Source: Siphonodentalium dalli (taxonomy: Eukaryota; Mollusca; Scaphopoda; Gadilida; Siphonodentaliidae). Taken from it: a stretch of DNA of 64,000 bases. Made by a program: the position numbers and the translations under genes. Shown in pieces: positions 15,382-64,000 of the stretch. The notes beneath the pieces are model-generated. The model had not been told where the DNA came from. It made no database searches and saw only the letters and a program-made list of their open reading frames with translations. Position 1 is the stretch's first letter. Each line of letters opens with the position of its first letter. The DNA lies in the NCBI GenBank assembly GCA_032622095.1, contig CP136061.1, forward strand, positions 196,586,935 through 196,650,934, in the 5' to 3' direction.

Positions 15382-15543
15382 ACAGAACGAAACGATGTAT
15401 AAATTGGTTTGTCGATATATACGGCACTCGTGCTGTCGCGGAAGGATAGAACTCGAGGCACAAGCGCCTCTCGTTCTATCCTTCCGCGACAGCACGAGTG
15501 CCGTATCGACAAACCCATTTACACATCGTGCATGTCGTTCTGT
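15382..15543. repeat. Long foldback in intron 2 (copy 1)
   Basis: Arms of about 75 bp pair almost completely: the left arm includes GTGCTGTCGCGGAAGGATAG and the right arm its exact complement. A loop of about 15-20 bp (GAGGCACAAGCGCCTC forms its own stem) lies between. Transcribed as intron RNA it would fold into a long hairpin. It is present at the same place in copy 2 (61162-61319). It is most likely a foldback MITE; a hairpin RNA precursor is possible but unproven. Confidence 0.85.
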
Positions 15544-15988
15544 GTATATACGGCATATACCGCGTTCTAGGGACTGTGTCACAGACATGTCCAGCTATTT
15601 TCAATTTTTCGCACAGAAGTGAAATAAACGCTGTTTATTTCTACATGTACCATACCAGGAATAGAACAGGAGTAGACCACGTGCAAATGATTGTTTTTGT
15701 TTGGAACCCAAACTTCGTGTTCAAAGTTGTATTTGTTATCACTTCAATGCGTCTTTCAAAAATGCTCGTAGCAAGGTAGTTCAACAATCTATCGACCTAT
15801 AAGATGCAGCGAAAAGCGTATATTATTATATATATGTATTTTGGAGCGCAGCCGCAAAGTGACTTTAATTTATTATTGGTATAACTCTCCAGTAACGAAA
15901 TATCGTGTGTTAAAACATCTGGTTATAAACATTACATCGTATGTTATATGCCATAACATGCAGTGATACATTCATTATTAATTCATAG

Positions 15989-16132
15989 CTGGACACTGGA
16001 CATCGTGGCACAGTGGTTACTGCAGTGTCACCTGCGGCACAGGTTCTGAGACAATAACACGGTTTTGCAGTGGCGGAATCAATTGTATTGGCTCACCATT
16101 CAGCAGTCAAGATTGCCACCGAGAGCCATGTG
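15989..16132 (+). CDS. Exon 3: TSP1 domain 1, TSP1 gene copy 1
   Basis: Acceptor TTCATAG, donor TG|GTGAGT, 144 bp, phase 1 at both ends. The 48 residues form a full thrombospondin type 1 repeat: HWTSW (a WxxW C-mannosylation motif), CSVTCGTG (the CxxTCG O-fucosylation motif), then four more cysteines, ending CHREPCG. The total is six cysteines, as usual for the family. TSP1 repeats act outside the cell in adhesion, matrix binding and axon guidance; which of these applies cannot be told. It corresponds to 63615-63758 in copy 2, with which it differs at three residues. Confidence 0.92.
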
Positions 16133-59888: not shown

Positions 59889-60739
59889 GTAAGTACATAC
59901 ATGTCAAGTAGGCGTTTAAATTGAAAACATCTACCTTCTCCCGCAAAATCAGACTATTATATTATTCAAGGTGTGACGGAATATCATGGCCAAAAGTAGA
60001 ACATCTATATATATTTGTGTTGATATACTGTACAACAATACGTGTGAATGTGCCACACGAAAATAGGCCTTATTTAATGCTGGTTATAGTATAACACGCT
60101 TCATATCTAATTGACTCGTCTCTCATTACGAAATTGCTGAATTGTGTTGCACGGATTTCGTTTGGAAATAGAACATAGCTGTCTGACTGATTCGATAATA
60201 TTTCCCCGCCTCGGAGACTGAGAAATGTATGTCATGCATGACGGGCGGAGTTACTAGAAGTTTTAAAATCTAAACATCCTTATGTCAGATCAAATCTAGT
60301 ACATATACACGCAATTTATCGTTCTTGTCACATTAAAAATTAAATGCTTACGTATACGCTGGTAAATATGTGGTTCGGTTCCTGAATTTGATCACACCAA
60401 AGGGCAGACAAAGAATGCTCTGTCGTAATTTAAATTGAACGATGATTAATAATGGCCTGTCATATTTAACACACCTACATGTAAATTACTAAATCTTATA
60501 AAATAAAAATAAAAATATATATATATAGATACATATGCATAGAGTCGACAAAAATTCGAGGTGCAGAAAATAAACATATTTCAAAAATAGAAATCTAATA
60601 GCACTGAGCTTTGAAGGGTATAGATTCCTCGACTCAACTCAAATACATGTATATTCTCTCTAAAAGCCGAAGAAATAGTAATTTAGGGGCGTTAAATGTG
60701 ACAGGGAATCACTAAAATATTGTGCAGTGATTACTCTAT

Positions 60740-60910
60740 ATACTCAATGCATATATACGGCATATACCGCGTTCTACTCTACGCAATGGATCTATACGGC
60801 ATATACCCCATTCTACTATACGCAATGCATGTATACGGTATATACCCCGTTCTACTATACGCAATGCATGTATACGGCATATACCGCGTTCTACTCTACG
60901 CAATGCATCT
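60740..60910 (+). repeat. 39-bp tandem repeat (copy 2)
   Basis: Counterpart of 14955-15125 with four units. The palindrome GTATGGAACGTACGTTCCAT follows at about 60969. Confidence 0.9.
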
Positions 60911-61161
60911 TTATTACACGCTTGTTCCTAGAAATACGGTGTTATTGCTGTTCCATATTTACAAATCCGTATGGAACGTACGTTCCATACGCATCTCGTT
61001 GACGTCAAATGACGTAAATGACGTTCGCCTCAACCATGAAACTGGAACTATTTAAATAAAAGAATCATCACACATAACAAAAACCCCTGTATGAACATAA
61101 ATAAACCTTTAATCCTGTATTTTTAATGCACGGATTCTAGGACGCGAAGAATGTAATAAAA

Positions 61162-61319
61162 ACAGAACGACACGATGTGTAAATGGGTTTGTCGATATAT
61201 ACGGCACTCGTGCTGTCGCGGAAGGATAGAACTCGAGGCACAAGCGCCTCTCGTTCTATCCTTCCGCGACAGCACGAGTGTCGTATCGACAAACCCATTT
61301 ACACATCGCGTCGTTCTGT
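61162..61319. repeat. Long foldback in intron 2 (copy 2)
   Basis: Arms from ACAGAACGACACGATGTGTA pair to the right edge CGTCGTTCTGT with fewer mismatches than in copy 1: the left arm has GTGTAAATGGG, fully complementary to the right arm, where copy 1 has GTATAAATTGG. Confidence 0.88.
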
Positions 61320-61598
61320 GTATATACGGCATATACCGCGTTCTAGGGACTGTGTCACAGACATGTCCAACTATTTTCAAATTTTCGCACAGAAGTGAAA
61401 TAAACGCTGTTTATTTCTACATGTACCATACCAGGATTAGAACAGGAGTAGACCACGTGCAAATGATTGTTTTTGTTTGGAACCCAAACTTCGTGTTCAA
61501 AGTTGTATTTGTTATCACTTCAATGCGTCTTTCAAAAATGCTCGTAGCAAGGTAGTTCAACTATCTATCGACCTATAAGATGCAGCGAAAAGCGTATA

Positions 61599-62261
61599 TC
61601 TCATATATATTTTGAACACCTCTGTTCGTATGTTTGTTTGTATGTTTGTGTGTATGTCATTGATACAAATCTACGATTCTCGACCGATCGGGACAAAACT
61701 TGGTACATGTGTGTAGTTTGACCAGGCGGTGGACGTTGTCGTATTGGCGAGCCCGCGCGGCGCCCGTGCAGCGCATGCGCAGACGAGATCTCGGAAACGG
61801 GTGGATCTATCGACTTGAAATTTGCTATGTGAATGTATCTTGCCCCGGATACGAATTTTATCGCGTCGCCGAGCCCGTGCGACGCCAGCTTCGCGCATGC
61901 GCAGACGAGATCTCGGAAACGGGTGGAGCTATCGACTTGAAATTTGGTATGTGAATGTATATTGCCCCGGATACGAATTTTATCGGGTCGCCGAGCCCGT
62001 GCGACGCCATCTTCGCGCGTGCGCAGACGAGATCTCGGAAACGGGTCGAGCTATCGACTTGAAATTTGGTATGTGAATGTATCTTGCCCCGGATACGAAT
62101 TTTATCGGGTCGCCGAGCCGGTGCGACGCCAGCTTCGCGCATGCGCAGACCAGATCTTGGAAACGGGTAGAGCTATCGACTTGAAATTTCGGGCTGGGTA
62201 GAGCTATCGACTTGAAATTTGGTTTTTGAATAGCCCGGACAACGTCGGGCTCATCGGCTAA
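61599..62261 (+). mobile_element. Helitron, tandem member 1
   Basis: Preceded by A, starts TCTCATATATATTTTGAACA, then CTGTTCGTATG repeats. It ends with the hairpin GCCCGGACAACGTCGGGC, then TCATCGGCTAA. Inside is a 122-bp tandem repeat (CGCATGCGCAGACGAGATCT in each unit), about four units. A partial duplication of the 3' segment lies near 62190. No coding capacity; the many open frames come from the 122-bp repeat. Confidence 0.9.
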
Positions 62262-62893
62262 TCTCATATATATTTTGAAGACCTCTGTATGTCTGTCTGT
62301 TTGTTTGTCTGTCTGTCTGTCATTAATACAAATCTACGATTCTCGACCGATCGGGACGAAACTTGGTACGTGTGTGTAGTTTGACCAGGCGGTCGTCGTT
62401 GTCGTGTTGGCGAGCCCGTGCGACGCCCGTACAGCGCATGCGCAGACGAGATCTCGGAAACGGGTGGAGGTATCGACTTGAAATTTGCTATGTGAATGTA
62501 TCTTGCCCCGGATACGAATTTTATCGGGTCGCCGAGCCCGTGCGACGCCAGCTTCGCGCATGCGCAGACGAGATCTCGGAAACGGGTGGAGCTATCGACT
62601 TGAAATTTGCTATGTGAATGTATCTTGCCCCGGATACGAATTTTATCGGGTCACCGAGCCCGTGCGACGCCAGCTTCGCGCATGCGCAGACGAGATCTCG
62701 GAAACGGGTGGAGCTATCGACTTGAAATTTGGTATGTGAATGTATCTTGCCCCGGATACGAATTTGATCGGGTCGCCGAGCCCGTGCGACGCCAGCTAAG
62801 CGCATGCGCAGACCAGATCTCGGAAACGGGTCGAGCTATCGACTTGAAATTTGGTTTTTGAATAGCCCGGACAACGTCGGGCTCATCGGCTAG
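62262..62893 (+). mobile_element. Helitron, tandem member 2
   Basis: Starts TCTCATATATATTTTGAAGA directly after member 1. It ends with the same hairpin and TCATCGGCTAG, and carries four 122-bp units. Very similar to members 1 and 3. Confidence 0.9.
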
Positions 62894-63448
62894 TCTCATA
62901 TATATTTTGAACACCTCTGTTTGTCTGTATGTATGTTTGTTTGTCATTTATACAAATCTACGATTCTCGACCGATCGGGACGAAACTTGGTACGTGTGTG
63001 TAGTTTGACCAGGCGGTGGACGTTGTCATATTGGCGAGCCCGTGCGACGCCAGTTTCGCGCATGCGCAGACGAAATCTCGGAAACGGGTGGAGCTATCGA
63101 CTTGAAATTTGGTATGTGAATGTATCTTGCCCCGGATACGAATTTTATCGGGTCGCCGAGCCCGTGCGACGACAGCTTCGCGCATGCGCAGACCAGATCT
63201 CGGAAACGGATGGAGCTATCGACTTGAAGTTTGTTTTTTGAATAGCCCGGACAATGTTGAATTTTATCGGGTCGCCGAGCACGTGCGACGCCAGCTTCGC
63301 GCATGCACAGACCAGATCTCGGAAACGGGTGGAGCTATCGACTTGAAATTTGGTTTTTGAATAGCCCGGACAACGTCGGGCTGGGTAGAGCTATCGACTT
63401 GAAATTTGGTTTTTTAATAGCCCGGACAACGTCGGGCTCATCGGCTAG
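62894..63448 (+). mobile_element. Helitron, tandem member 3
   Basis: Starts TCTCATATATATTTTGAACA directly after member 2 and ends hairpin plus TCATCGGCTAG, followed by T at 63449. The 3' hairpin segment is present twice or more (63361-63380 and 63419-63437), showing internal end duplication. Copy 1 has GCGTATA|TTATTATA at 15816-15830 with no insertion, so the outer borders of the trio are exact. Confidence 0.9.
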
Positions 63449-63614
63449 TTATTATATATATGTATTTTGGAGCGCAGCCGCCAAGTGACTTTAATTTATT
63501 ATTGGTATAACTCTCCAGTAACGAAATATCGTGTGTTAAAACATCTGGTTATAAACATTACATCGTATGTTATATGCCATAACATGCAGTGATACATTCA
63601 TTATTAATTCATAG

Positions 63615-63758
63615 CTGGACACTGGACATCGTGGCACAGTGGTTACTGCAGTGTCACATGCGGCAAAGGTTCTGAGACAATAACACGGTTTTGCAGTGGC
63701 GGAATCAATTGTCTTGGCTCACCATTCAGCAGTCAATATTGCCACCGAGAGCCATGTG
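63615..63758 (+). CDS. Exon 3: TSP1 domain 1, TSP1 gene copy 2
   Basis: Acceptor TTCATAG, donor TG|GTGAGT, 144 bp, phase 1-1. The same six-cysteine TSP1 repeat as at 15989-16132, with CSVTCGKG instead of CSVTCGTG, NCLGS instead of NCIGS, and SSQYC instead of SSQDC. WxxW and the O-fucose motif are retained. The gene continues beyond the window; exons equivalent to 4-8 of copy 1 are expected. Confidence 0.92.
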
Positions 63759-64000
63759 GTGAGTCTAGCTATATCTACTGTTGTGTGCAGAGAACGTCAA
63801 ACTTGTTATAAGATTCACATGCCCTGCAGTTTACTACACATGTCGGGACATTGAAGATCTCTAATTCGGCGTAATTCTATAGGAATTTGATTACTAAATT
63901 CGATTCCAGCTGGAATAGAATTTAGTGCACGATGTTAATAAATTTCGTATACAATTTCGACGAATTTGAGATCCATTTTAGCTAATCACATTTTAGCAAG

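Follow-up and report, generated by a model that had tools for sequence, protein, structure and literature searches.

Organization of the array

The DNA analyzed here is a stretch of 64,000 nucleotides from the Siphonodentalium dalli genome (2.23 Gb in 9 contigs), which corresponds to C1:196586935-196650934 and is hereafter called the window. As established by sequence alignment, its segment 61599-63448 holds three non-autonomous Helitrons (E1, E2, and E3), which are arranged head to tail with zero spacer. The relevant features, numbered from the first nucleotide of the window, are the following:

15816-15830, + strand: empty A|T site in a paralogous copy of the locus (copy 1), junction 15822|15823 (sequence, flank alignment)
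61599-62261, + strand: E1, non-autonomous Helitron of 663 bp, TC...CTAA (sequence, flank alignment)
61748-62189, + strand: internal repeats of E1, 122-bp unit (tandem-repeat search)
62232-62251, + strand: 3' hairpin of E1, 10 nt short of the end (sequence; same hairpin sequence folded)
62262-62893, + strand: E2, non-autonomous Helitron of 632 bp, TC...CTAG (sequence, flank alignment)
62411-63362, + strand: internal 122-bp repeats of E2 and E3, given as a single array by TRF
62864-62883, + strand: 3' hairpin of E2 (sequence; same hairpin sequence folded)
62894-63448, + strand: E3, non-autonomous Helitron of 555 bp, TC...CTAG (sequence, flank alignment)
63419-63438, + strand: 3' hairpin of E3 (sequence, fold)
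63449-63470, + strand: right half of the target, TTATTATATATATGTATTTTGG, a T and then TATATA, like a Helitron 5' end (sequence, target-site count)

All three members start with TCTCATATATATTTTGAA and contain the hairpin AGCCCGGACAACGTCGGGCT, which stops 10 nt short of the 3' end; the terminus CATCGGCTA(A/G) follows. The 122-bp unit is represented by four anchors in E1, four in E2, and three in E3. The initial annotation had described three tandem Helitrons without spacer, delimited by TC...CTAA, TC...CTAG, and TC...CTAG and having a 3' hairpin and a 122-bp repeat in common, a description borne out by the exact member boundaries and by the shared hairpin and anchors. The members thus exhibit the 5' TC and 3' CTRR ends of canonical Helitrons, a hairpin at the usual distance from the 3' end (10 nt, for a canonical position of about 10-15 nt) and insertion at A|T without target duplication, as judged from the empty paralog and from base counts in the flanks. 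Folded as DNA, the E3 hairpin (44 nt) reached -6.4 kcal/mol (z -1.8), while a typed 33-nt form of the shared hairpin sequence gave a z of -2.56; its stability is modest and its position is right for a canonical Helitron. A Helentron or HINE identity, which implies T|T insertion, was rejected, A being found at position -1 in 59 of the 63 left flanks that remained after those ending in CTAG had been dropped.

Several other features were noted in and around the array. E1 ends in CTAA (62252-62261), which re-creates an internal A|T, while the head-to-tail junctions among the matches listed genome-wide have CTAG. Inside E3, a 3'-end-like stretch joined to the 122-bp repeat (63244-63271) provides a marker for the history of the array. 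Directly downstream lies a thrombospondin type 1 (TSP_1) exon (63608-63760, E 3.6e-6), borne by a segment of which the search described below identified seven copies on C1, the aligned segment being found in copy 1 as well (15500-16100 and beyond). On the other side, long and near-perfect inverted repeats (61156-61325, arms of 41-42 nt, 93%) are located near a 39-bp tandem repeat (60735-60910), and a similar sequence occurs in copy 1 near 15390-15545.

Empty site and paralogous copies

Once joined, the flanks of the array match copy 1 (15500-16100) in a gapless alignment across GCGTATA|TTATTATA, and no target duplication is seen in this comparison. The exact empty A|T reported at 15816-15830, free of any duplication, is therefore upheld, with the proviso that the first T of a Helitron at A|T can be assigned to either side, as for any Helitron. 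The insertion site, AAGCGTATA|TTATTATA, is the same in copies 1-3 and in a further paralog, L002. Among the 40 candidates scored in a search with the left flank, seven copies reached at least 94% identity, and all of them lie on C1. The site is empty in copy 1 and in L003, L004, and L005. Copy 2, in the window, and copy 3 (L001) share the array, which differs between them at 2 of 1850 positions, while L002, a third paralog, carries on the same base three head-to-tail members of 575, 846, and 682 bp. Flank substitutions amount to 2.3% (73/3195) between copies 1 and 2 and to 1.8% (37/2068) between copy 2 and L002. The bases adjacent to the site in copy 1 match those of copy 2 and differ from those of L003, which argues against a recent conversion of a filled site to an empty one by an L003-like copy.

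Copies 2 and 3, located 61.67 kb apart (C1:196648294 and C1:196709967), are about 99.6-100% identical where compared (L001, L102, L103) and represent either a tandem duplication of very recent date or a duplicate introduced by the assembly. Assembly expansion of the array, named in the initial annotation as the outcome that would overturn its reading, is unlikely, as the array is present in copy 3, which could itself be an assembly duplicate, as three members are found in L002 and as 6,177 comparable junctions exist genome-wide.

The L002 array may be either an independent second use of the same base or the window array reshuffled, an ambiguity that slightly reduces confidence in serial insertion. 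Compared in 120-bp windows, the window array was better fitted by another locus in 25 of 29 cases, with 3 ties and L002 best in 1 (in E3). Over the whole element, the closest member pairs were W_3/L002_3 (4.0%) and W_2/L002_2 (4.3%), L002_1 being without the compared 5' region; these distances exceed the flank value of about 1.8%, which counts against a shared ancestry of both arrays. Conversely, the 4.0% of W_3/L002_3 lies below the 5% point (4.3%) of the distances between W_3 and other elements, and the rare joint inside E3 recurs in L002 and copy 3 and at no other locus among those compared, so that both arrays may derive from one ancestral array, later reshuffled. The branching of the flanks is mixed, with 2 polarized sites for copy 2 plus L002 and 4 for copy 1 plus copy 2, in alignments where the copy 1 flank was one base short; distances were obtained from correctly cut flanks.

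Divergence of the members and age of insertion

Substitutions between members reach 5.4% for E1-E2, 7.5% for E2-E3, and 7.3% for E1-E3, values which, set against the 2.3% of the flanks, have Poisson probabilities of 1e-5, 3e-10, and 9e-10, respectively. With CpG sites excluded, the distances are 4.4%, 6.8%, and 6.1% in the same order, with probabilities of 5e-3, 6e-7, and 1e-5. The three further paralogs with an empty site suggest that the state of copy 1 is ancestral. If so, the members of a concatemer acquired once the copies had split should be at most about 2.3% apart, a bound which is independent of L002. The members are two to three times more divergent than this insertion age allows, with gene conversion from other copies as a process that could inflate their differences. 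They were already different on arrival and not identical at insertion, as those of a concatemer would be.

This result bears on the two origins offered by the initial annotation, namely repeated insertion at A|T and rolling-circle read-through, in which replication passes the 3' terminator or circles, so that a concatemer made from one template is inserted once. At the window, read-through is disfavored by the excess divergence. As to matches elsewhere in the genome, the best others of E1, copy 3 aside, are 95% identical over 602 bp among the 40 candidates scored, while the E2-E3 unit has two full-length matches at 93%, copies 2 and 3 aside, among the best 40 of 5,825 candidates. None of the members thus shows a particular closeness to the one next to it, and separate arrivals are the simplest account.

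Relationships between array-mates at other loci

The sample comprised 163 elements from 82 loci, all on C1, with a usable 5' region in 157 of the 163. The first set was mostly drawn from first-listed 3' ends, the dense 13.75-13.79 Mb cluster being left out; the second, drawn from first-listed junctions plus one place where an A end meets a B-like one, favors well-preserved ends and was taken without a repeated block (31.73-31.83 Mb) and a single junction located at 47.9 Mb. Comparison over about 170 bp was possible for 70 adjacent pairs, which came from 41 loci. Neighbors differ on average by 5.5% and shuffled partners by 6.2%, with none of 2,771 shuffles as low; an earlier sample of 27 pairs had given p 0.41 for within versus between, whereas in the 70 pairs neighbors are slightly, yet significantly, more similar. 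Pairs at most 1.2% apart number 6 of 70 (0.7 expected), L093_1 and L093_2 being 99.7% identical over the whole element, and the array-mate is the nearest of all elements in 3 of the 70.

Siblinghood was evaluated by adding up the distances of the two mates to their respective nearest copies at other loci, a total that the distance between siblings should not exceed. By this test, which is weakened by homoplasy and gene conversion, it is rejected in 48 of the 70 pairs (34 by two or more substitutions), compared with 83% and 68% of random pairs. Most pairs therefore behave as unrelated copies, while siblings may make up a minority of perhaps a tenth to a fifth. The slight similarity of neighbors and the six near-identical pairs imply that some other process adds siblings. 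Of the two origins initially offered, serial insertion at A|T is thus retained for the window and for most sampled pairs, whereas read-through could explain no more than the six pairs that are near-identical in the compared region. Serial insertion predicts an age gradient with younger members at the 5' side, which was not significant over 42 arrays (23 in the expected direction, 18 in the opposite one, p 0.27).

Unlike neighbors would also result if a ready-made mixed array were transposed as a unit, its internal ends being skipped. Pairs of arrays matching at both positions at 2% or less are slightly in excess, with 5 seen and 2.3 expected. Yet two of these five involve L006 and L071, whose common left flank reveals a duplication of host DNA, and in another two L097 is matched with one of these loci. 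With the cut-off relaxed, the observed numbers equal the expected ones (10 vs 8.1; 27 vs 28.5), and the full-length matches of E2-E3 noted above are only 93% identical. Transposition as a unit is accordingly a quite improbable origin for the array.

Recombination has left traces. Within the duplicated host DNA, L006_3 (603 bp) combines the 5' part of L071_3 (99.5%) with the 3' part of L071_4 (100%), which indicates that arrays also change by unequal recombination. At C4:208947031-208950272, matches to E2-E3 are evenly spaced by 758-759 bp, possibly as a true concatemer or as a satellite in the making through unequal exchange. As the main cause, local amplification in which members or their 122-bp repeats undergo unequal recombination or gene conversion is very unlikely: although the fusion in L006_3, the look of tandem amplification on C4, and the E3 joint common to L002 speak for it, it needs two copies to start from, cannot join members of different families at their exact ends, and predicts near-identical neighbors, which are absent in most sampled pairs. 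It is best viewed as a secondary process, compatible with serial insertion.

Head-to-tail junctions across the genome

Counted as exact matches and hence as lower bounds, head-to-tail junctions number 6,177 genome-wide (35-bp pattern), for 18,198 3' ends and 17,146 5' ends, while about 0.66 would be expected from random A|T insertion. The reversed pattern gave 0 matches, as did all reversed controls with the exception of that for a B-like 5' end, TCTANTATATATTTTG (25,587 matches; reversed control 35). Head-to-head joints without spacer were likewise absent genome-wide with the exact pattern; with shorter arms and up to 8 bp between them, 12 loci were found, mostly with TA-type spacers, a count that could be lowered if palindromic joints are unstable or hard to assemble. 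For insertion at the remaining A|T sites of the 5' terminus, the expected pattern, TTTTGAA at most 8 bp downstream of a 3' end, gave only 4 matches.

Joints are not confined to one family. Besides joining its own kind, the 3' end of the family of E1-E3, called A, is joined to a B-like 5' end in 3,546 cases. About 34% of A 3' ends adjoin an A 5' end, the junction count including CTAA ends and the 3'-end count not, and 19% adjoin a B-like 5' end. Joining to resident 5' ends is thus a genome-wide habit, exerted in the same orientation and across Helitron families. Read-through from one template cannot give the cross-family junctions and, despite the precise CTAG|TC joints which form in Helraiser circles according to the accessible part of that study (PMC4778049), we consider it unlikely as the source of the array.

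Other Helitron families and the autonomous partner

Family B, too, has the appearance of a Helitron. At L007, an A copy is followed by two B copies, each of the form TC...CACCTTCTAG and with a hairpin-like stretch ahead of the end, and at L067 a B-type 3' end lies downstream of an open frame of 1697 aa. In L035 and L061, A elements are immediately preceded by a third type, which ends in AACCTGCTAG. As A elements also precede B, stacking between families occurs in more than one direction.

A candidate autonomous partner is found at L066 (C1, minus strand), an element of 8,675 bp with A-type ends (TC...CTAG). It contains an unbroken frame of 1,614 aa, in which a Pfam scan identified Helitron_like_N, PIF1, and Pif1 2B domains and which bears the motifs HSH and YVCKY. 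The 5' 323-373 bp are 83-87% alike between L066 and E1-E3, and the last 32-33 bp 97%. The array members hence have a partner with the same ends that encodes a RepHel protein, as canonical Helitrons do, and L066 probably mobilizes E1-E3, given these shared ends. The partner protein (P0001) had no match to the endonuclease family expected of Helentrons and HINEs (Pfam scan, E<=0.001). Beside L066, C1:13.75-13.79 Mb is occupied by a dense cluster of A-type and B-like Helitron ends on the same strand.

Target site

The target was examined in right flanks devoid of a recognized Helitron end, 28 in number and 24 after removal of repeats, once 9 flanks with TATATATTTTG-like ends, including that of the window, had been set aside. 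The first base is T in 22 of these 24, of which at least two have doubtful ends (L037 at 734 and L083). TATATA follows within 18 bp in 19 of the 24, compared with 4.0% of 13,543 control A|T sites taken from the window in both orientations. On the left, where the adjacent base is A as described above, TATATA occurs in only 11 of 63 flanks. The host target motif is thus one-sided, consisting of A|T with TATATA rightward, and resembles the 5' end of the element, since the element front TCTCATATATATTTT is of the same kind: a T and then the stretch ATATATAT. The empty window site reads TTATTATATATATGTATTTTGG, so that the motif preceded the insertion.

Use per site is about 36% for A 5' ends, 14% for B-like ends, and, by rough extrapolation, about 0.035% for generic A|T sites with TATATA. 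Own ends being used roughly 1,000 times more than generic sites, recognition must extend beyond TATATA. The genome-wide habit, the one-sided motif, and the stacking across families were not mentioned in the initial annotation.

Proposed mechanism

Collectively, these data make it probable that the array results from separate insertions, in the same orientation, of related but distinct Helitrons at resident 5' ends. Each copy would land at the A|T directly before the 5' end (TCTCATATATATTTT) of a resident copy, guided by a family preference for A|T with TATATA rightward within about 18 bp. As its own 5' terminus resembles this target, every copy would bear a strong landing site at its front and, since the host A remains on the left, the site would be re-created at every insertion and the array would extend in the 5' direction. 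Target recognition would be performed by the RepHel protein, the specificity which cuts the donor 5' end presumably also picking the target. Unequal recombination and occasional copying of siblings would then reshape the arrays.

A broader proposal is that a Helitron selects its targets by essentially the specificity of its own 5' end, which would make each copy a unidirectional landing pad, renewed at every insertion, for itself and related families, and that arrays in general have grown 5'-ward by targeted insertion rather than by rolling-circle concatenation. This generalization is put forward tentatively, as a conjecture that could nearly as well hold as fail. Were most arrays to arise at resident 5' ends, the argument from tandem arrays for rolling-circle transposition would weaken. 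The target rule of the transposase would become readable from genomes, the recipients being Helitron ends. In addition, the host might suffer less damage when new copies stack onto old ones, and satellite-like arrays might draw raw material from such stacks.

Comparison with known systems

The following comparisons rely on the accessible portions of the cited articles. Rice DHH_Mothra elements (PMC4683698) resemble those described here in being non-autonomous, abundant, and TC...CTAG, with a 3' hairpin and blocks of internal tandem repeats; their sequence is different, and the portions of that article at hand mention neither head-to-tail arrays nor insertion into Helitrons. In maize, two unlike Helitrons, adjacent and head to tail with a G/T joint, were read as consecutive insertions (Du et al. 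2008, PMC2267711). That study concerns one case in which the order of insertion was unsettled, whereas the present data comprise thousands of joints, together with a test of orientation, a motif at the target, and a paralog in which the site is empty. Tandem Helitrons with perfect head-to-tail joints are also reported from bat and silkworm (PMC4067079; for bat also PMC2267711), where they have been ascribed to terminator bypass; here, in contrast, most of the members sampled are dissimilar and numerous joints are cross-family. A three-member case in Metarhizium was left undecided between insertion and bypass (PMC5148889), and tandem Helitrons have been quoted in support of rolling-circle transposition (PMC5876387).

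As for the target, Helraiser (PMC4778049) similarly inserts at AT in AT-rich flanks, most strongly so on the side of the transposon 3' end, and has an AT-rich 5' terminal stretch. A preference for AT has been described in wheat as well (PMC13286980). In the parts of the Helraiser study considered, the 5' end is not stated to be a target, whereas the one-sided motif described here resembles the 5' end and predicts stacking. In the literature searched, mostly excluding subscription papers, we found neither a genome-scale test between insertion and read-through nor a statement that the 5' end is a preferred target. Adjacent Helitrons in maize and the 3'-side AT preference of Helraiser were thus known before, while the scale, the orientation test, and the target mimicry were not found in this literature.

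The proposed mechanism is reminiscent of IS608 and the IS200/IS605 family, in which the same rule serves to recognize the target and the donor end and the site is restored after insertion. These elements use another type of transposase, and their recognition proceeds by base pairing within the element.
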